Virus record (IMG/VR): IMGVR_UViG_3300007541_000141
Location: 1-28,383 of that record
Source: a virus
Reading direction: 5' to 3' (one strand)
DNA: 28,383 nt
Positions 2,643 to 25,735 of the stretch are shown here, one piece after another. Position 1 is the stretch's first letter, and the number at the start of each line of letters is the position of its first letter. Both the position numbers and the translations under genes were made by a program. The notes under the pieces were generated by a model, which saw nothing but the letters and a program-made list of their open reading frames with translations, had not been told where the DNA came from and searched no databases.

Positions 2643-2796
2643 AATTTGGACTATTTGGAAGTACGCGCTCGGAGGATTTTCTGATGACAAGACAGAACCT
2701 TATGATGACTACGTGGCTTTGCTTCGTACTATTATCGTCGGCGTTAATTTTATTACATGCTTTTTTATCATAGCAAACATCGTACATAATTGGTAA
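2626..2796 (+). CDS. 56-residue predicted membrane protein
   Basis: ATG at 2626 opens a 56-codon frame ending at TAA 2794-2796. The product begins MRTRSKIWTIWKYALGGF, continues with a charged DDKTEPYDDY stretch, then has one hydrophobic helix (about residues 33-52, RTIIVGVNFITCFFIIANIV) and ends HNW. The pattern (basic aromatic N-terminus, ALGGFSD, PYDDYVALLRT, single transmembrane helix) resembles a short membrane protein that I associate with T4-like marine phages. It overlaps the previous gene by 17 bases, so translation is probably coupled. A competing ATG at 2684 with GGAGG upstream gives only 29 residues in another frame and is judged a shadow. Function unknown. Confidence 0.68.
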   Translation: MRTRSKIWTIWKYALGGFSDDKTEPYDDYVALLRTIIVGVNFITCFFIIANIVHNW

Positions 2797-4290: not shown

Positions 4291-4319
4291 TTGACATTTT
4301 GATTTAACTGTGGTATAAT
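4291..4319 (+). promoter_or_regulatory. Consensus sigma70 promoter for uvsY-uvsW
   Basis: TTGACA at 4291-4296 and TATAAT at 4314-4319 are separated by exactly 17 bases; the -10 is preceded by TGG, giving an extended -10. Both hexamers are perfect. The -35 abuts the TAG stop of the tail-tube-like gene. Predicted start near 4326 leaves a leader of about 27 bases before uvsY. Confidence 0.88.
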
Positions 4320-4352
4320 AGCACAGTTATAAATTCAAATTAGGTTTAAATT

Positions 4353-14221: not shown

Positions 14222-14497
14222 ATGAAACTAATTAGACTTACGACTGGCGAAGAAGTCGTCGCTTCAATTAAAAATGAAACAGAAACTAGCGTTACTATCG
14301 AAGATGGAATTCTTCTAATTCCGGCTGGAGAAGGTAAGATCGGAATGGTACCTTTCATGCCTTATTCTGATGGAAGTCCGATTGAAATTAATCGAGCTTC
14401 TATCATGTTCATGACGAAACCTAATGAAGATCTTTATCGTCAGATACTTCGAGTAACGACAGGAATCGAAACACAATCTTCTGGAATCGTATTGTAA
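14222..14497 (+). CDS. Sm-like small phage protein
   Basis: A 91-residue product starting MKLIRLTTGEEVVASIKNE. I use ATG 14222 rather than the longer frame from 14117, which would overlap the polymerase gene by 71 bases. The pattern (L-x-T-G-E-E-V-V-A-x-I, SVTIEDGILLIP, MVPFMPYSDG, IEINRASIMFMTKP) is that of small beta-barrel proteins in T4-like marine phages that I associate with the Sm/Lsm fold; I recall a structure of such a protein of cyanophage origin. If so it may bind RNA like Hfq, but this is inference. GGAG is five bases upstream of the ATG. It is first in a two-gene unit with a sulfotransferase-like gene. Confidence 0.68.
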   Translation: MKLIRLTTGEEVVASIKNETETSVTIEDGILLIPAGEGKIGMVPFMPYSDGSPIEINRASIMFMTKPNEDLYRQILRVTTGIETQSSGIVL

Positions 14498-14500
14498 ACA

Positions 14501-15220
14501 ATGGCTTCTATAAAAAAAATATGTATCATTACTAACTTTAGATGTGCTAGCACAGCTTTTAATCTGTTAAAAGCTGAAGAGTACGGAGTGCCTTACAAAG
14601 GCGAGTTGTTTAGCCATGAAAAAACTTTTGATATTGGAAACACAGATAAATTTAAAAAATTTTCTGGCACAAGAACCAATGAAAATTTTTACGCCGAGCT
14701 AAAGAACAATGAGAGTGTTGAGTGCTGCTTTAAGATCATGCCGGTTCACACTCAATATGATGTAGATTTTTTAATTGACATAGCAAAAGCTACAGATAAG
14801 GTTTACTATCTTTATAGAAGAGATTTTTTATCTCAACTTACTAGTTATATCGCTATTCGTGCTTATGGTAACGCACAGAAAACAGGGTTTAGAACTAATG
14901 TAGGGTTTAACCAAAGAGAAGAAAGAGCAAGACAGTTAGTGTTAGGCACCCTCGGCGAAGAAAAAACTTATGAACTCGAAATGAGTCTTAAAGACAGAGA
15001 GTTGAACGGACTTCACGGTAACATAGGTGTTAAGATGCTGCGCAGACAGCTTATAAGAAATTATGAAGTGATGGCAGAAGCTTATAAGATTTTTCCTGGT
15101 GAATTAATATGCAAAGAAGATTACTTCACCGAAGAAAAATATAAGCCATATAACAGAAAGGTTACTTGGAATGAAGATCCAAATTTTGAAGACTTTGATG
15201 TCGAAGGTCTATTCATTTGA
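14501..15220 (+). CDS. Sulfotransferase-like protein
   Basis: A 239-residue product starting MASIKKICIITNFRCASTAF. The N-terminal strand followed by RCASTAF (residues 14-20) resembles the 5'-phosphosulfate-binding loop of PAPS sulfotransferases (R-x-G-S-T/S), and YYLYRRDFLSQLTSYIAI (about 106-123) resembles the 3'-phosphate-binding region (R-D-x-x-x-x-x-x-S). The second half is less clear. Such proteins would move sulfate from PAPS to a sugar or protein; the target is unknown. It uses AGA for many arginines and is AT-richer than polymerase or gp46, suggesting separate ancestry. The ribosome site is weak and the gap to the upstream gene is three bases. Link to the APS-kinase-like gene at 7174 is inference. 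Confidence 0.55.
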   Translation: MASIKKICIITNFRCASTAFNLLKAEEYGVPYKGELFSHEKTFDIGNTDKFKKFSGTRTNENFYAELKNNESVECCFKIMPVHTQYDVDFLIDIAKATDKVYYLYRRDFLSQLTSYIAIRAYGNAQKTGFRTNVGFNQREERARQLVLGTLGEEKTYELEMSLKDRELNGLHGNIGVKMLRRQLIRNYEVMAEAYKIFPGELICKEDYFTEEKYKPYNRKVTWNEDPNFEDFDVEGLFI

Positions 15221-16699: not shown

Positions 16700-16728
16700 T
16701 TGACATTTACTCCAAACTGTATTATAAT
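16700..16728 (+). promoter_or_regulatory. Consensus sigma70 promoter for the DUF262-HNH to dCMP-deaminase operon
   Basis: TTGACA (16700-16705) and TATAAT (16723-16728), 17-base spacer, both perfect, in the recurring CAGTTGACATTTA context. An A/T-rich stretch (16681-16697) lies just upstream. The expected start, near 16735-16736, coincides with the first base of a 9-bp stem in the leader. Confidence 0.88.
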
Positions 16729-16735
16729 TGTATCT

Positions 16736-16830
16736 GATTGGTGGGAATTGGCTATGACGGCGAGACGAAAGTTTAGGACCCACGAAGGCATCGAACCACC
16801 AATCTTCTTATGTTGCCGAGTTGAAGGCAA
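16736..16830 (+). ncRNA. Structured 5' leader RNA, possible cis-regulator
   Basis: The transcript from the promoter at 16700-16728 should begin near 16736. GATTGGTGG (16736-16744) is perfectly complementary to CCACCAATC (16796-16804), closing a 51-base internal domain. GTGGG (16741-16745) can pair instead with CCCAC (16779-16783), which would break the long stem, so two exclusive folds exist. A second hairpin, TTGCC (16813-16817) with GGCAA (16826-16830), lies closer to the downstream ribosome site (GGAG 16850-16853). I compared it mentally with tRNA, hammerhead, glutamine riboswitch and RNase P signatures and found no match. Regulation is inference. Confidence 0.45.
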
Positions 16831-16834
16831 TTAA
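16754..16834 (+). CDS. Possible 26-residue leader peptide
   Basis: ATG 16754 to TAA 16832-16834 encodes 26 residues starting MTARRKFRTHEGIEPP and ending CCRVEGN. GGTGGG at 16740-16745 is a possible ribosome site eight bases upstream, but it lies in the 5' arm of the leader stem, so translation and folding would compete. The peptide is basic at its start and has two adjacent cysteines. I know of no homologue, and such a frame could be accidental within a structured RNA. It ends 27 bases before the DUF262-HNH start. Confidence 0.3.
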   Translation: MTARRKFRTHEGIEPPIFLCCRVEGN

Positions 16835-16861
16835 TTGAAAATTGAAATCGGAGTAGAAACG

Positions 16862-18214
16862 ATGGAATATAGTGTCAAAGTAATGTCGGCACAAGAAATT
16901 GTCGACCTTCTCAATACTGGAAAATTAAATCCAGATCCTATCGGCCAACGGCCACCTGTATCATCAGGCGTAAAAAAATCTGTAGCAATCATTAAAGGTC
17001 TCATGTCGGGATTCGGTTGTGGTATGCTCACTATTCGTGACATCCGCAACGACAAAGAATCTCAAAAGATCTATGGTTGTGATTATCTTGTTATCGATGG
17101 CGGACACCGCTGTCGAGCACTTAAAGCATACTATTCTGGAAAGATTCTAGTTAACGGTGAGAAATACGTTGATTCAGATTTTGACTTGAATGATGTACAA
17201 ATCCCCGTTGATGTGCGTGTGTGCTCAAGCAAAGAAGCTTCCGTTCTGTTCAAGAACATTAATACTACCACACCCACTAACTTCATGGAAATGGTTATGT
17301 CCGATGAAGAATCTCTAGTGTGTGAGTATATCCGCAAACAAACTTCTTATGTGCGTGAGTACGGTAACGAACCACATTCAATCTTTGAAAAACTAGTCAA
17401 ACCAGACGGTAAGCTTATTGTAAGTAACTGGGTAGACCAACAGCCTAATCCTCGTAGGCGCTGGGACGAGTTTGTAGCAATCGCTATTATTCGTTCGGTG
17501 GGAAAAGGTTTAGTCGACGCCGGTCAAACAGAAATTGAGAAACTTTGTGATGATGAAGTCTTAATTAGTTCATCAGTTAAGACTATGGTAACTGACTTTT
17601 TAGACGCTACATTACGACTACGACAATTTCGAAAGTTTCAGTTAAACGACGCCATCTTCTCGGCATTTTCTGTTTACTACTTTGGTCTTGTAGGCCAACA
17701 CGGTAAATTTAAGATCAGTGACGAGGAAGCTTTCTTTAAGAACTTCATGAGTACATATACGAGGTTGACTGGAAAGCAGGACAAGAGTCTAGAAAAAGAA
17801 ACGCTTGAGTACAAGGGTAACGTATTCTTCATCAAAGAATTCGTCCGCAAATACCGTCGACACTCTGCAGATAGTACTGCGCAAAAAATTGTGTTCGACC
17901 TATTTACAAAGCACTCAAACTGTGATACAATAGGCATTACAATTTTGGATAATACTCGTTCACTAAGTAAGACTGATCGAGAAGAAGCGCTGGCTGCTCA
18001 AGGGTATGTCTGCGCTATCGACGGTTTACCACTTAATCTCGATGAAGCGGTATTCGGTCATGATACTCCTTGGTCTAAAGGTGGTAAGAGTGAGTTAGCG
18101 AATGGTGCTATGATTCGAGCAGAACACAATCGAGACATGGGTACCGTAACTCTTGACGAGTATCGTTTAATTTTAAGTATGAGGAAACAAAATGAGCAAG
18201 CAGCAACAGCCTGA
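16862..18214 (+). CDS. DUF262/ParB-like protein with C-terminal HNH nuclease domain
   Basis: A 450-residue product. I use ATG 16862 (GGAG eight bases upstream) rather than TTG 16835. The N-terminal 160 residues have IGQRPPVSSG (about 27-36) and VIDGGHRCRALKAYYSG (about 77-93), like the QR and IDGQQR motifs of DUF262/ParB-type proteins, which in GmrSD and related enzymes couple NTP hydrolysis to DNA cleavage. The C-terminal 70 residues have YVCAIDGLPLN, FGHDTPWSKGG (His400, Asp401) and MIRAEHNRDMG (His422, Asn423), an HNH-type beta-beta-alpha metal site. The middle is helical. It is the first gene behind the structured leader. The domain pair is that of modification-dependent restriction systems; here it may act on host or competing phage DNA, or be a homing-type enzyme. 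Confidence 0.65.
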   Translation: MEYSVKVMSAQEIVDLLNTGKLNPDPIGQRPPVSSGVKKSVAIIKGLMSGFGCGMLTIRDIRNDKESQKIYGCDYLVIDGGHRCRALKAYYSGKILVNGEKYVDSDFDLNDVQIPVDVRVCSSKEASVLFKNINTTTPTNFMEMVMSDEESLVCEYIRKQTSYVREYGNEPHSIFEKLVKPDGKLIVSNWVDQQPNPRRRWDEFVAIAIIRSVGKGLVDAGQTEIEKLCDDEVLISSSVKTMVTDFLDATLRLRQFRKFQLNDAIFSAFSVYYFGLVGQHGKFKISDEEAFFKNFMSTYTRLTGKQDKSLEKETLEYKGNVFFIKEFVRKYRRHSADSTAQKIVFDLFTKHSNCDTIGITILDNTRSLSKTDREEALAAQGYVCAIDGLPLNLDEAVFGHDTPWSKGGKSELANGAMIRAEHNRDMGTVTLDEYRLILSMRKQNEQAATA

Positions 18215-18745: not shown

Positions 18746-19000
18746 ATGGCAAACGTGATTATCCCCTCTTCTGAAGAAGACCGTAAGCGTATTCGTGACG
18801 CTATGGAAGAAATTAGCAACTCGTATACTCGAGTCGAAGCTGAGCGTGACTTCGTAAAAGAAGCAATTAACAACCTAGCCGAAGACGTCGATGTTCCTAA
18901 GAACATTCTTCGTAAAATGGCTCGTATCTATCATAAGCAAAACATGGCCGCAGTAGTATACGAAGTGGAAGATATTGAGGCTCTGTTGGAGTCAATCTAA
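18746..19000 (+). CDS. dsbA: DsbA-like double-stranded DNA-binding late-transcription protein
   Basis: An 84-residue helical product (T4 DsbA is about 89). DRKRIRDAMEEISNSYTRVE followed by AERDFVKEAINNLAED and the C-terminal NILRKMARIYHKQNMAAVVYEVEDIEALLE matches the T4 protein, whose C-terminal part reads in similar order with A-L-Y-H-K-D-N. T4 DsbA binds double-stranded DNA, including late-promoter DNA, and modestly stimulates late transcription. The gene sits 15 bases after the membrane protein gene and one base overlaps the dCMP hydroxymethylase start. Early position in the same transcript as the hydroxymethylase is noted but not explained. Confidence 0.72.
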   Translation: MANVIIPSSEEDRKRIRDAMEEISNSYTRVEAERDFVKEAINNLAEDVDVPKNILRKMARIYHKQNMAAVVYEVEDIEALLESI

Positions 19001-19680
19001 TGAATAATGTAAAAGGCATCCGACGAAAGATCTTAGATCGTTTTCTCGACGAAGATTTTGTCATTGATCGAACTGGTGCCAAAACAATTGAAATTATCGG
19101 TGAGTCTTTTGTTGCTGACGAAGATTGGGTTATTCGTAAAGCAAATAAAGAATACATCGAGCGAGAACTACAGTGGTATGAATCACAGTCTTTGTTCGTT
19201 GATGATATTCCTGGCGAGACTCCACAGATCTGGAAAGACATCGCTGACCGTGAAGGTAAGATTAATTCTAACTATGGTTGGTGTATCTTCTCAAAAGAAA
19301 ATGGTTTGCAATACGAGAACGTAAAAGCAGAACTGACTGCTAATCCGAATTCTCGTCGAGCGACTATGATCTACAACCGCCCTACCATGCATACTGATTT
19401 CTGTAAAAACGGTATGAATGACTTTATGTGTACTTATGCAAACACCTTCATGATTCGTGACGGTAAGTTAATCTCTCACTATATCATGCGTTCGAATGAT
19501 GCAGTGTTTGGGTTTAACAATGACGTTGCTTGGGCTAAATATGTTCAGGCTCGACTCGCTAAAGAACTTGAAGTCGAGGTCGGTGATCTTATCTGGACCG
19601 CTTCGAACTTTCACGTGTATGAACGTCACTTTAAGTTTATTGAGAAATTGATCGATGAAATGGGACAAAAGATTTATTAA
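19000..19680 (+). CDS. 42: Deoxycytidylate 5-hydroxymethyltransferase (gp42)
   Basis: A 226-residue product (T4 gp42 is 246) with near-identical blocks: VIDRTGAKTIEIIGESFVAD, LFVDDIPGETPQIW, INSNYGW, SRRATMIY and MNDFMCTYANTF. Cys144 is the catalytic nucleophile (T4 Cys148) and RSND (164-167) binds phosphate. Asp175 in FGFNNDVAW corresponds to T4 Asp179, the residue that makes the enzyme use dCMP instead of dUMP (thymidylate synthase has Asn). It converts dCMP and methylene-tetrahydrofolate to 5-hydroxymethyl-dCMP, the precursor of hmC-DNA that resists restriction. The C-terminus is shorter than in T4. Its 3' end overlaps dCMP deaminase by 26 bases. The phage therefore very probably contains modified cytosine. 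Confidence 0.93.
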   Translation: MNNVKGIRRKILDRFLDEDFVIDRTGAKTIEIIGESFVADEDWVIRKANKEYIERELQWYESQSLFVDDIPGETPQIWKDIADREGKINSNYGWCIFSKENGLQYENVKAELTANPNSRRATMIYNRPTMHTDFCKNGMNDFMCTYANTFMIRDGKLISHYIMRSNDAVFGFNNDVAWAKYVQARLAKELEVEVGDLIWTASNFHVYERHFKFIEKLIDEMGQKIY

Positions 19681-20113
19681 TCTCGCTCGAGAAATTTCGA
19701 CTTGGAGTAAAGATCCAAGTACGAAAATTGGGGCGGTTATCGTAAATGATGACCGTCGCATTCTTGCGACCGGCTACAACGGCTTTCCTCGTGGGATAAG
19801 CGACAATGACTGGCGGTATGAAGATCGAGAAGAAAAGTACAAGTATGTAGTTCATGCTGAAATGAATGCGATCTACAACGCGACATTCAATGGTATCTCT
19901 TTGAATGATTCGACACTCTATGTTTGGGGTTTACCTGTATGTAGCGAGTGTGCTAAAGGTGTTATTCAAGTGGGTATTAAAAAGATTGTTATGCCTAAGC
20001 TTGATTTCCCTGAACGCTGGGTTGACTCGTTTCGAAAGTCTCGAGAACTTTTCTTAGAAGCCGGTATTGACTGGTATTTTTTAGAAGTTGACGAAGAAGA
20101 CGAAGACAGTTGA
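19655..20113 (+). CDS. cd: dCMP deaminase
   Basis: A 152-residue product starting MKWDKRFINLAREISTWSKD. The zinc site is complete: HAEMNAI (His67, Glu69) and PVCSEC (Cys96, Cys99). The N-terminal sequence with DPSTKIGAVIVN matches the dCMP deaminase family (T4 Cd, 193 residues), rather than cytidine deaminase. It converts dCMP to dUMP for dTTP synthesis, drawing on the same dCMP pool as hydroxymethylase; no thymidylate synthase or dUTPase lies in this window. ATG 19655 lies inside the gp42 frame with an overlap of 26 bases. Its C-terminus is acidic (EVDEEDEDS), and its TGA is embedded in the next promoter's -35. Confidence 0.93.
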   Translation: MKWDKRFINLAREISTWSKDPSTKIGAVIVNDDRRILATGYNGFPRGISDNDWRYEDREEKYKYVVHAEMNAIYNATFNGISLNDSTLYVWGLPVCSECAKGVIQVGIKKIVMPKLDFPERWVDSFRKSRELFLEAGIDWYFLEVDEEDEDS

Positions 20114-20147: not shown

Positions 20148-21368
20148 ATGAAAAAGATTGTAGTGATAGACAACTTAACTGAAACTTTCAAAGGATCTAT
20201 AGTTCGATCAGGTCTGCAGAAAAGTTCAAAACTCGATGCCCGTGCTTTCGCTAAGATGGGCTACAACACTCACTTCATTTATTGTGGTGAGTGCAAAGAC
20301 GATTATAACTATACACATCACGTAGTTAACGAGCTCGGTTCTAAAGATCGAGCGATGGCTGAAGGCAAGAATCCTTCTCGAGTTTCTCGTTACTACATCA
20401 AAGCATATCTTGATTCAGTTAAAGATGTTCTTCAAGACGCTGACTATATTATCGCTCACTGTCATAGTGTTTCAATGATTACTCTAGTCAATAGTCTAGT
20501 TAAGAACAAACGCATCATGTTTGTCATTCATGACGTGATTGATCTCATGTGGTGTTATGGAACGAGTGATGTTATTCGTCGTATGCGCGCCACGGATCGC
20601 AACATGGTATACGTTGCTACGAACTCGAAATACTCGGTTCAGCGCATGACTGACATTCACTTGCGAGCTGTTGCTGCAAAATATCCAGAAGCTCCTATGC
20701 CAGGCGAAGAAGCTTTCGATGGTTATGTCAAACACTTCGTTTGGACTGATGAAGTCGTAACAGAAGACGATATTAAAAATGTTGAGAAAAAATCTGCTAT
20801 CATCGGTCGCTATGAGACATCTAAGTTTCACCATAAAGTTTATGGGTACAAGAATCCAGACAACGTAATCGTTCACTATGGTATTAAAGATCCTCGTCGA
20901 GATAAGACCGGTAAGTACTATGAGAAGCTTACTAAGACTGCTAACGCTTATGCCGAGAATCTTTCTGACGACGATTTGTTTAAAGCTATTAAGAGCTCAC
21001 AGTCAATTATTCTTCCGTGCCATCACGAGGGATTCGGTTATACTGCTTTCGAAGCAGGCATCTACGGAGTGTGTCCAGTAATCTTCCAACGAGAACTCGA
21101 ACACTTAGGTGTTTGGGCTCATGCAACATCCGAGTATCTTACTCGAGCGAATGTTAAGCACTTTGTCGCCGACTTCAACAATCCCGATGACATATATAAA
21201 GCTATAGACGAGAGTATAAAGATCAGCATCGAAGATCGTTTTGAAATATCTCGTAACCTTTTAAATTATTTTAGCGTTGAGAACTACGTTAACGAGCGAA
21301 TCGAATTACTTGATTCTATGGAAGAGCGAGTCTCAACCCAAGTTGATCTTGAGGATTTTTTTGTATGA
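20148..21368 (+). CDS. GT-B glycosyltransferase, candidate hmC-DNA glycosyltransferase
   Basis: A 406-residue product, close to T4 alpha-glucosyltransferase (400). Two Rossmann halves are visible: an N-terminal half with SIVRSGLQKSSKLDARAFA and MGYNTHFIYCGECKD, and a C-terminal half with IIGRYETSKFHHK (Arg221) and LPCHHEGFGYTAFEAG (290-304), where the E-x-x-x-x-x-x-x-E donor-sugar motif sits, then CPVIF. Activity would move a sugar from a nucleotide-sugar, and context (gp42, dCMP deaminase, DNA-acting neighbours) suggests hydroxymethylcytosine in DNA as acceptor. The C-terminus VDLEDFFV resembles the polymerase tail TIEDFFS; T4 alpha-glucosyltransferase is reported to bind the gp45 clamp. A cell-wall or LPS glycosyltransferase remains possible. 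Confidence 0.72.
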   Translation: MKKIVVIDNLTETFKGSIVRSGLQKSSKLDARAFAKMGYNTHFIYCGECKDDYNYTHHVVNELGSKDRAMAEGKNPSRVSRYYIKAYLDSVKDVLQDADYIIAHCHSVSMITLVNSLVKNKRIMFVIHDVIDLMWCYGTSDVIRRMRATDRNMVYVATNSKYSVQRMTDIHLRAVAAKYPEAPMPGEEAFDGYVKHFVWTDEVVTEDDIKNVEKKSAIIGRYETSKFHHKVYGYKNPDNVIVHYGIKDPRRDKTGKYYEKLTKTANAYAENLSDDDLFKAIKSSQSIILPCHHEGFGYTAFEAGIYGVCPVIFQRELEHLGVWAHATSEYLTRANVKHFVADFNNPDDIYKAIDESIKISIEDRFEISRNLLNYFSVENYVNERIELLDSMEERVSTQVDLEDFFV

Positions 21369-22558
21369 TTAAACACGCATCTATCGTACCGCTGATCGGT
21401 GGTGAGACCATCGGCTCAGAACTCGCGTTTGGCGAGAAACCCACCTACATGATGTCGTACGAGGCCTTCGCAGCCAACGACGCTCACGCCCGTAATTACT
21501 ATAGCGGTACTCCATACTATGTTCTAGATAAGGGAGAGAAGCCCACAGAGAGTGTAGACGTAGTATCTTCTGTGTGTCCATGTGCAGGACTGTCTCAGCT
21601 ATCTCACGGATTCGGAGACGACAACCCTAACAACCAGTGGATGGAAATTACTGCTGAACATGTTCTTGGAACAGTAAAACCTAAAGTGTTCTGGGGTGAG
21701 AATGCGCCAGGCTTCGCAGGTAAAATCGGCGACACAGTTCGAAACAAACTCAAACAGATCGGAAAAGAAAACGGATATACTATGACTGTATATCGTACTC
21801 GATCTCTACTCCACGGTGCACCACAAATTCGTGAGCGTTCTTTCTACTTCTTCTGGAAAGATACTAAAACTCCTCTCTTAAGTTGGTACAATAAGCAATA
21901 TACTAAAATTGAAGATGTGATTCGAGGTGTAGCAGGCTCAAACAGCTTTACTGATCCTATCAATCCAAAAACTCCGAGTGTAGATGATCTCTATTATAAG
22001 TTCGTGTTAGAACACATTCACGGTGGTATTAGCCATAAAGAATTCTTTGAAATCGCTGAGCCACAAAGAGTAAGAGCACAAGACATGTTTTCATATATCG
22101 AACGTAGCGGATATGACTACAAGCAAGTCGGAGAATGGATGGAAGAACATGGGTACGAAAGAGAAGTTGAAAAGTGTTTACGAAAGTATGAGAAACTCAA
22201 AGCTGGTGGAAACATCATGCGACGCGGTACTATCATTCCTAAAGATTACATTGGCGCTTTCGTTGGTCATTATCCTACCTGTCTTACTCACCCTGATGAA
22301 GATCGTTATATTAACTATCGCGAAGCTATGGCAATCATGGGACTACCTAATGATTTTGAGCTCCTCAATCCGAAGAGAAGTGCAAACCATATTTGCCAAA
22401 ACGTTCCCGTGCAAACAGCTAGAGACATGGCGACGGAAGTAAAGAAATACCTAGAAGGTAAGTTACAAATGGTTGACGCTGACTATGTAGTACAGTACAA
22501 TCATACACAGAAATCAGAATACTTAGAAAAACACGACACGCTAGAAGCCTTTATCTAA
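21365..22558 (+). CDS. Cytosine-C5 DNA methyltransferase homologue
   Basis: A 397-residue product. Motifs of C5-cytosine methyltransferases in order: PLIGGETIGSELAFG (motif I-like, 9-23), SSVCPCAGLSQ (motif IV, Pro72-Cys73 nucleophile), WGENAPGFAG (motif VI, Glu112-Asn113), QIRERSF (motif VIII, 154-160), YREAMAIMGLP (motif IX-like, 318-328) and CQNVPVQTARDMATE (motif X, 344-358). A long insertion between motifs VIII and IX (about 165-290) carries an unrecognised target-recognition region. Motif IV has an unusual Cys pair and lacks the common Gln-Gly. In a phage making hmC the C5 carbon is normally occupied, so its job is unclear. The C-terminus DTLEAFI resembles the tails of the polymerase and upstream GT. 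Overlaps both neighbours. Confidence 0.78.
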   Translation: MIKHASIVPLIGGETIGSELAFGEKPTYMMSYEAFAANDAHARNYYSGTPYYVLDKGEKPTESVDVVSSVCPCAGLSQLSHGFGDDNPNNQWMEITAEHVLGTVKPKVFWGENAPGFAGKIGDTVRNKLKQIGKENGYTMTVYRTRSLLHGAPQIRERSFYFFWKDTKTPLLSWYNKQYTKIEDVIRGVAGSNSFTDPINPKTPSVDDLYYKFVLEHIHGGISHKEFFEIAEPQRVRAQDMFSYIERSGYDYKQVGEWMEEHGYEREVEKCLRKYEKLKAGGNIMRRGTIIPKDYIGAFVGHYPTCLTHPDEDRYINYREAMAIMGLPNDFELLNPKRSANHICQNVPVQTARDMATEVKKYLEGKLQMVDADYVVQYNHTQKSEYLEKHDTLEAFI

Positions 22559-23157
22559 TGAGTGATATTTTCGTCATTGATGACGTGATTTCAAAACCAG
22601 AACAAGATCGTATAGAAAAACTTATGTTTTCTAAAACTCTGTTCTGGACGTTCTTCGATGATGTAGCTTTGAGTGATCATGAAAATGAACTACTAGGAAT
22701 AAATAAAAAGACGCCGGCCGTAGGTTGTTATTTTAAGCAAGAAAATCCTCCTTACTTTTTTGGAAGAATGTACTTTCAAGTCGAAAACGTTGCGCGGCAA
22801 GCAGCAAAGAAGGCGGGCATCAAATTTGACAGTATAGTCGATGCTCGTTCTTTTCTAATGTTTCCCTTGCATGAAAACGTAAGAAAGGAGTACGACAATA
22901 TTCACGTCGATATGCTTGAAGATCATTGGGTTTGCTTATACTATGTAAATGATTCTGATGGAGACACGGTTCTCTTTAAACAAACTAAAGAAGATATGAA
23001 TAACGACTTTGAAGTTTTTAAGAACACTAAGTTCGAACCTCTAAAGCGAGTAACGCCGAAGAAAGGAAGAGCAGTAGTATTTAATGGAAATAGATATCAT
23101 AGTAGCACAGCACCGACTAACGGTGTTCGATGTATTTTAAATTTTGATTTGAGATAA
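22558..23157 (+). CDS. 2-oxoglutarate/Fe(II)-dependent dioxygenase
   Basis: A 199-residue product with the double-stranded beta-helix signature: HVD (His116, Asp118), YHSS (His181) and VRCILNFD (Arg191, which binds the 2-oxoglutarate carboxylate). The order and spacing (about 65 residues between HxD and the distal His, ten to Arg) and KGRAVVFNG fit the prolyl-hydroxylase-like branch. It would oxidise a C-H bond using O2 and 2-oxoglutarate. Such proteins are common in marine phages, and substrates are mostly unknown. Position directly after a C5-methyltransferase homologue (TAATG overlap) and between two glycosyltransferases suggests a modified base, but a protein target cannot be excluded. 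It uses AGA for arginine more than its neighbours. Confidence 0.82.
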   Translation: MSDIFVIDDVISKPEQDRIEKLMFSKTLFWTFFDDVALSDHENELLGINKKTPAVGCYFKQENPPYFFGRMYFQVENVARQAAKKAGIKFDSIVDARSFLMFPLHENVRKEYDNIHVDMLEDHWVCLYYVNDSDGDTVLFKQTKEDMNNDFEVFKNTKFEPLKRVTPKKGRAVVFNGNRYHSSTAPTNGVRCILNFDLR

Positions 23158-25642: not shown

Positions 25643-25668
25643 GATTGCTTAGACCTTTCTCGAGAATA

Positions 25669-25710
25669 GGGGACTCAGCTAATGCTAGTCCCCGCCTTTC
25701 GAATTTTTAT
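25669..25710 (+). terminator. Terminator-like hairpin between clamp and loader genes
   Basis: GGGGACT (25669-25675) pairs with AGTCCCC (25687-25693); inside it AGC (25677-25679) can pair with GCT (25684-25686) around a TAAT loop, with one bulged C. A T-rich stretch (25703-25710, then TTTATATT) follows after a nine-base gap. The GC-rich stem stands out in this DNA. The gap before the T-run makes partial termination more likely than complete. No obvious promoter follows before gp44 at 25736, so some read-through is expected. Confidence 0.62.
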
Positions 25711-25735
25711 TTTATATTATGATTATGGTGAATAA

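Follow-up and report, generated by a model that had tools for sequence, protein, structure and literature searches.

A conserved structured RNA at a predicted transcript start

Comparison with related phage sequences shows that positions 16736–16804 of the window (the whole 28,383-nt stretch of DNA analysed here, IMG/VR record IMGVR_UViG_3300007541_000141) encode a conserved structured RNA, of a class that is well supported. This element is predicted to stand at the very 5′ end of a single phage transcript in each genome. Its parts, and the promoter that precedes it, are as follows.

16700–16728 (+): sigma-70 promoter TTGACA-17-TATAAT, a 12/12 match, kept in 9/9 variants
16736–16804 (+): entire conserved RNA element at the predicted transcript start, matched by the R1 search
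16736–16744 (+): P1 5′ arm, GATTGGTGG, from the predicted +1; 8 of 9 P1 pairs changed on both sides
16745–16758 (+): conserved 5′ strand of the internal loops, GAAUUG GCU AUGAC; near-invariant columns in alignments A1 and A2
16751–16753 (+): P2 5′ arm, GCU, partner 16787–16789; 100% paired, with one-sided changes only
16759–16781 (+): P3, a variable apical hairpin with a GG/CC base and an AGAC-GAAA-GUUU top; relatives have other hairpins in its place
16782–16795 (+): conserved 3′ strand, ACGAA GGC AUCGAA, including the P2 3′ arm at 16787–16789; near-invariant in A1 and A2
16796–16804 (+): P1 3′ arm, CCACCAATC; perfect 9-bp pairing with 16736–16744

What is conserved folds as one irregular hairpin (P1-P2-P3) with the class layout P1 - GAAUWG - GCY - ANGRC - P3 hairpin - AYGAC - GGY - AACGAA - P1′. 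The class consensus is GAAUWG GCY ANGRC for the 5′ internal-loop strand and AYGAC GGU AACGAA (also given with GGY) for the 3′ strand. Elements are 57–70 nt in size, with one larger variant, and P1 spans 9–13 bp across the nine variants. The window element has all of the R1 class features (P1 at +1, the two conserved strands and a variable P3) and matches R1 at 79.5 bits (E 5.7e-19), the window sequence (W) itself being among R1's source sequences.

The original prediction had described a 9-bp stem opening at the first transcribed base, and both the pairing and the placement were borne out: the stem is perfect, and 7 nt separate it from the −10 box of the promoter (TTGACA at 16700–16705, a 17-nt spacer and TATAAT at 16723–16728). 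In all nine variants the first base of P1 lies 6–8 nt 3′ of the −10 box, at the predicted +1, the 5′ end of the transcript being predicted from promoter sequence. The window, G009, G021 and G022 together have 121 near-consensus promoters. In a ranking of these for stems anchored at +1, the four that bear the motif took places 2, 4, 5 and 6, and at the remaining promoters such stems were no commoner than at random sites, which argues that pairing at +1 is a property of the element and not of promoters generally. A general rule that these phages begin their transcripts with hairpins was rejected: levels were at background except for the element and two other promoters in G021. At these two (L246:9910 and L245:18871) transcripts would open with a 12–13-bp hairpin, which at L245:18871 is followed by TTTTTT, giving a terminator-like hairpin at +1. 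Perfect TTGACA-17-TATAAT matches occur seven times on the plus strand of the window (4291, 7900, 14184, 15217, 16700, 20110 and 24648), far more than expected, and several overlap gene ends.

Covariation of the closing stem

Folded as a single sequence, the leader is just moderately unusual: positions 16736–16860 (125 nt) gave a z of −2.0 against shuffles and 16736–16804 alone a z of −2.8, with 7 of 1000 shuffles equally low. Comparison with relatives therefore had to decide. The claim that no other gap in the window is as long or as structured held for length (180 nt, with others reaching 165 and 172 nt) and failed for structure, since two shorter gaps fold more strongly against shuffles (4291–4352, z −3.5; 25643–25735, z −2.7).

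Compensatory changes in relatives, on which the original prediction had been made to depend, are present for P1. In alignment A1, which holds seven distinct sequences, 99% of cells are paired across three helices and both-sided changes fall in 26 cells, against 8.1 ± 2.2 in shuffles (0 of 500 as high; the shuffle test ignores kinship, and the independent lineages may number six to eight) and 3–8 cells in slid controls. With L209 added, 97.3% of cells are paired and 29 are changed on both sides, shuffles across both alignments giving 8–9.5 and again not reaching the observed count in any of 500. Nearly all of the covariation is carried by P1, where 8 of 9 pairs show both-sided changes. P2 has one-sided changes only and P3 little countable variation, and the case for both helices is accordingly weaker than that for P1.

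The nine variants, all of them metagenomic sequences from IMG/VR contigs, are W, the L006 type, the L001 type, L003, the L057 type, L251, the L061/L209 types, the L139 type and L144. The bases that make up P1 differ from lineage to lineage, and each sequence is paired with its partner: GATTGGTGG in W, GATTGTTGG in L006, AATCTGGTGG in L001, GATCTGGTGG in L003, GAACTGGTGG in L057, GTTCAGTGG in L251, AAGGAATGAGG in L061 (one mismatch), ATAAGGAATGAG in L139 and GTAAGGAATAAAG in L144. The core is kept in eight of the nine; in L003 it is absent and a plain perfect 10-bp hairpin is left. In L251, P1 is perfect and begins at +1 despite enclosing an extra domain of ~65 nt, for which reason this variant was omitted from the pair counts. 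The enlarged L251 variant followed by ACCTTTTTT (L251:3440–3581, minus strand) resembles a large terminator-like leader.

The same alignments speak against mutually exclusive stems, as originally proposed from a pairing of GTGGG (16741–16745) with CCCAC (16779–16783). These segments are indeed complementary in the window, and the alternative pairing is not conserved, being possible in 52.5% of cells against 51.0% in shuffles. The CCCAC half is absent from L001, L057, L061, L139 and L144, and the two segments are complementary only in W and L251, with 4 bp in L006. The C's of CCCAC are explained by the inner stem P3 and its flank.

Could the conservation instead reflect a leader peptide or another coding artefact? 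Short frames do exist, such as one of 26 codons from 16754 in the window. However, other variants have ACGAC or AAGAC in place of its start codon, the peptides diverge, no ribosome site precedes the frame, L144 lacks any frame of at least 10 codons, and the covariation fits an RNA. We regard this explanation as very improbable.

An apparent module upstream of changing genes

Downstream of the element, the window carries the following features.

16812–16831 (+): second hairpin, UUGCC-GAGUUGAA-GGCAA, stem 16813–16830, compensated in relatives
16850–16853 (+): ribosome-binding site GGAG, 8 nt 5′ of the ATG at 16862, unpaired with the element
16862–18214 (+): first gene, encoding a ParB-like protein (DGGHRCRAL motif)
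19000–19680 (+): fifth gene, of the dCMP hydroxymethylase/thymidylate-synthase family, T4 gp42-like

Relatives of the ParB-like gene in IMG/VR are 78–81% identical (L001–L009) or about 50% identical (L010–L012). The promoter is present throughout L001–L009, and a related leader in all of them except L003. The hairpin that the original prediction had included in the leader structure is present, and it is a separate element of the ParB-like gene's own leader. Read by eye, its stem is UGACC/GGUCA in L006, GUAACC/GGUUAC in L012 and UUGUCC/GGACAA in L010. Because L010 and L012 lack the conserved element and have the second hairpin itself near the promoter, 5–6 nt 3′ of the −10 box, the window clade seems to have gained the element as a module placed between the promoter and an older leader. 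The second hairpin, with its CC-loop-GG core and compensatory stem changes, is specific to the ParB-like gene and is possibly a binding site for a regulator or for the ParB-like gene product.

In the window clade, the element is followed by the ParB-like gene and then by genes for a DsbA-like protein, dCMP hydroxymethylase and dCMP deaminase. The description of this unit as an operon for hmC precursors was thus loosely right, dCMP hydroxymethylase being its fifth gene and dCMP deaminase its sixth, with a further perfect promoter at 20110. Adjoining these two genes are glycosyltransferase-like, C5-cytosine-methyltransferase-like and 2OG-Fe(II)-oxygenase-like genes, which make 20148–23157 an unusually rich cytosine-modification island.

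The supposed special link to hmC precursors did not survive comparison. In G014, G015, G021, G022, L209 and L092 the element heads tRNA clusters, which have no ribosome cover, and in L057, L136, L137 and L251 it precedes a gene of 142–148 amino acids after about 150–290 untranslated nt. This change of downstream gene between relatives is a strong argument against a switch dedicated to hmC precursors. A ligand-sensing riboswitch or attenuator for nucleotide (hmC) metabolism would account for the aptamer-like look of the element, with conserved internal-loop nucleotides within a closing stem, and a U-rich stretch follows P1′ wherever a protein gene is downstream, except in L006. A riboswitch nevertheless couples its aptamer to a switching expression platform, and here only the aptamer-like core was found: the alternative pairing is not conserved, the Shine-Dalgarno sequence is not sequestered in the predicted fold, and the downstream genes, tRNAs among them, lack a common metabolic theme. 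We consider such a switch improbable.

A tRNA-like sequence, AAGGCAAC...GGTTCGATTCC...GTTGCCTT, is conserved between L115 (about 2650–2755, minus strand) and L061 (about 14490–14590, plus strand); it has a good T arm and acceptor, and ARAGORN calls no tRNA there.

Carriers and searches against known RNAs

Every carrier that could be tested belongs, by its DNA polymerase, to one narrow, uncultured T4-like clade. The window polymerase is 71–84% identical to those of G009, G015, G021, G022 and G025, and at most about 46% identical to that of any cultured phage; the G017, L251 and L209 contigs have no polymerase gene and fall outside this test. The R1 search found one credible copy of the element per contig and no match in eight cultured T4-like phages (T4, KVP40, S-PM2, HTVC008M, Cr30, 44RR, C48C1 and AB1I1M-1) or in HK022. 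Three element-bearing phages carry tmRNA genes of the permuted, alphaproteobacterial type, whose tags end in ALAA (L223:12761–13184, plus; L246:2772–3124, plus; L209:1108–1528, minus). These genes hint at alphaproteobacterial hosts for the carriers G021, G022 and L209.

As had been predicted, the element matches no known RNA class: the 4,227 families of Rfam 15 gave no match either at the gathering threshold or at permissive E-values, and blastn in cultured phages, E. coli genomes and plasmids returned nothing convincing. The class is absent from the catalogues searched, and may have been listed earlier outside the open-licence literature. It was the search with the conserved-strand pattern, not the gene search, that brought in unrelated loci; since exact patterns were used, distant members were missed. 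In a pattern scan of 85k prokaryote species genomes, three matches were judged to be chance, being GC-rich or unfolded and lacking a promoter. Weak matches of 15–20 bits (L184/L187, L168, L202, L206, L074, L083, L041, L087 and L118) were not accepted; among those inspected, none lay at a promoter with a paired P1.

A possible role in modifying the transcribing polymerase

While the class itself is well supported, its mechanism is something we infer. The best explanation, to which we give a probability of roughly 40%, is that this transcript-start RNA acts in cis, in antitermination or by docking on the polymerase. The unpaired strands are conserved while P1 and P3 drift, which implies a recognised surface. 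These invariant internal-loop strands would offer a conserved protein a surface to dock on, the likeliest candidates being host RNA polymerase or its elongation factors; loaded as it emerges, the element would make the polymerase resist termination on transcripts that begin with a long untranslated stretch, either tRNA clusters or leaders of 118–290 nt. With P1 at +1, the 5′ end would be shielded as well.

The comparison that bears most on this comes from G022. In its 195 kb there are exactly two perfect matches to a boxA-like 14-mer (GCTCTTTRAMAATT), where 0.015 would be expected, each directly 3′ of a plain GGAATGAAAATTCC hairpin at the +1 of a tRNA-cluster promoter. At the first cluster the order is promoter, element, 18 nt, second promoter, GGAATGAAAATTCC hairpin and boxA; at the second it is promoter, hairpin and boxA. 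At both clusters (L223:645–715 and L232:3494–3565) the boxA-like sequence after the +1 hairpin reads GCTCTTTGAAAATT. Boxes B and A together form a signal of the rrn/nut type (PMC10250234), and the G022 boxA differs by one base from the gamma-proteobacterial consensus GYTCTTTAANA; whether rrn boxA acts as an anti-Rho element is itself in dispute (PMC5725501). The G022 hairpin and boxA thus look like an antitermination leader of the rrn/nut type, placed at the head of tRNA operons in a phage. Allowing up to two mismatches, no boxA was found in the window leader, nor with the element in relatives other than G022. The best pointer to function is that the element takes the position of a known polymerase-modifying leader in those relatives whose element-bearing tRNA loci lack boxA. 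Like rrn and lambda nut boxB-boxA leaders, it places a hairpin at the opening of transcripts of untranslated RNAs; unlike them, it is larger and has no boxA.

A functional precedent for RNA alone modifying the polymerase near a phage early promoter is provided by HK022. Its putL RNA is ~70 nt long and lies just downstream of PL, and putRNA is structured, with non-canonical pairs, and thought to act on the polymerase of its own transcript (PMC9378689). The element is likewise a phage RNA of about this size just 3′ of an early promoter. However, putRNA, which suppresses termination by way of the beta′ zinc-binding domain, has two stem-loops that form a V with an RNA triplex, whereas the element consists of one irregular hairpin in which two internal-loop strands are conserved. 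R1 found no match in the putL region, which we located by AGACG-N7-CGTCT and G35/U28 numbering, or in the whole HK022 record, and there is no sequence relation. The stable RNAs of the T4 tRNA cluster are likewise small, non-coding and tied to tRNA clusters of T4-like phages; R1 has no match in T4.

Several findings count against antitermination. There is one element per contig although the large contigs each have dozens of sigma-70 promoters; the element heads a coding operon in the window clade; and L003 keeps the hairpin without the core. Antitermination alone also leaves the strict +1 placement unexplained, as putR works ~270 nt from its promoter (PMC9378689).

That placement favours protection of the 5′ end, in which a paired terminus would prolong the life of early transcripts by blocking both the removal of pyrophosphate and the tethering of RNase E, the core recruiting a further RNA-binding protein. 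Protective 5′-terminal stem-loops require a stem at the 5′ end (PMC3997798), and in every variant P1 begins within a nucleotide of the predicted +1. The perfect 10-bp hairpin of L003 and the presence of another hairpin at +1 in L010 and L012 point the same way, and nuclease protection has been proposed as a need of T4 delayed-early RNA (PMC2988021). The 5′-terminal protective stem-loops of ompA and papA, a kind that raises transcript half-life, begin, as the element does, with a stem from the first nucleotide, but they need no conserved internal loops. A plain hairpin would do for protection, which leaves the near-invariant internal loops unexplained, and only one promoter per phage is so equipped, +1 stems otherwise being at the level of random sites. 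We hold this explanation to be unlikely.

The single copy per contig, with its changing neighbours, favours in turn a trans-acting RNA, released by tRNA-adjacent processing or by termination at P1 and a U-rich stretch, that would bind or decoy a host or defence factor. Consistent with this are the element's own strong promoter, its closure 5′ to 3′ by P1, the tRNA-like sequence within a few nt 3′ of it in L115, the U-runs after P1′ in L001, L057 and L251, and its resemblance to a module placed before the older ParB-like leader hairpin. Against release, the window, L006 and the tRNA-linked variants have no strong terminator 3′ of the element, and every predicted transcript that opens with the element runs on beyond it; nor did we find it to mimic any known RNA. 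Such a role in trans seems to us as unlikely as 5′-end protection.

Returning to action in cis on the polymerase, it is possible, if on balance doubtful, that the element represents a class of RNA-only antiterminator, or of polymerase-modifying RNA, that is new and has no relation to putRNA or boxA, and that it sits at the first nucleotide of early transcripts and has been carried as a module from one operon to another within this uncultured T4-like clade. Few RNA-only antiterminators are known to us. What we describe is a well-covarying RNA class so far seen only in phages without a close cultured relative, and the module is short enough for direct tests in E. coli systems, provided that these conserve the recognised partner. 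Both antitermination and protection from nucleases remain under debate for the delayed-early RNA of T4 (PMC2988021). If polymerase-modifying or protective, the element would bear on the way in which T4-like phages keep early transcription going across stretches that are Rho-sensitive or untranslated.
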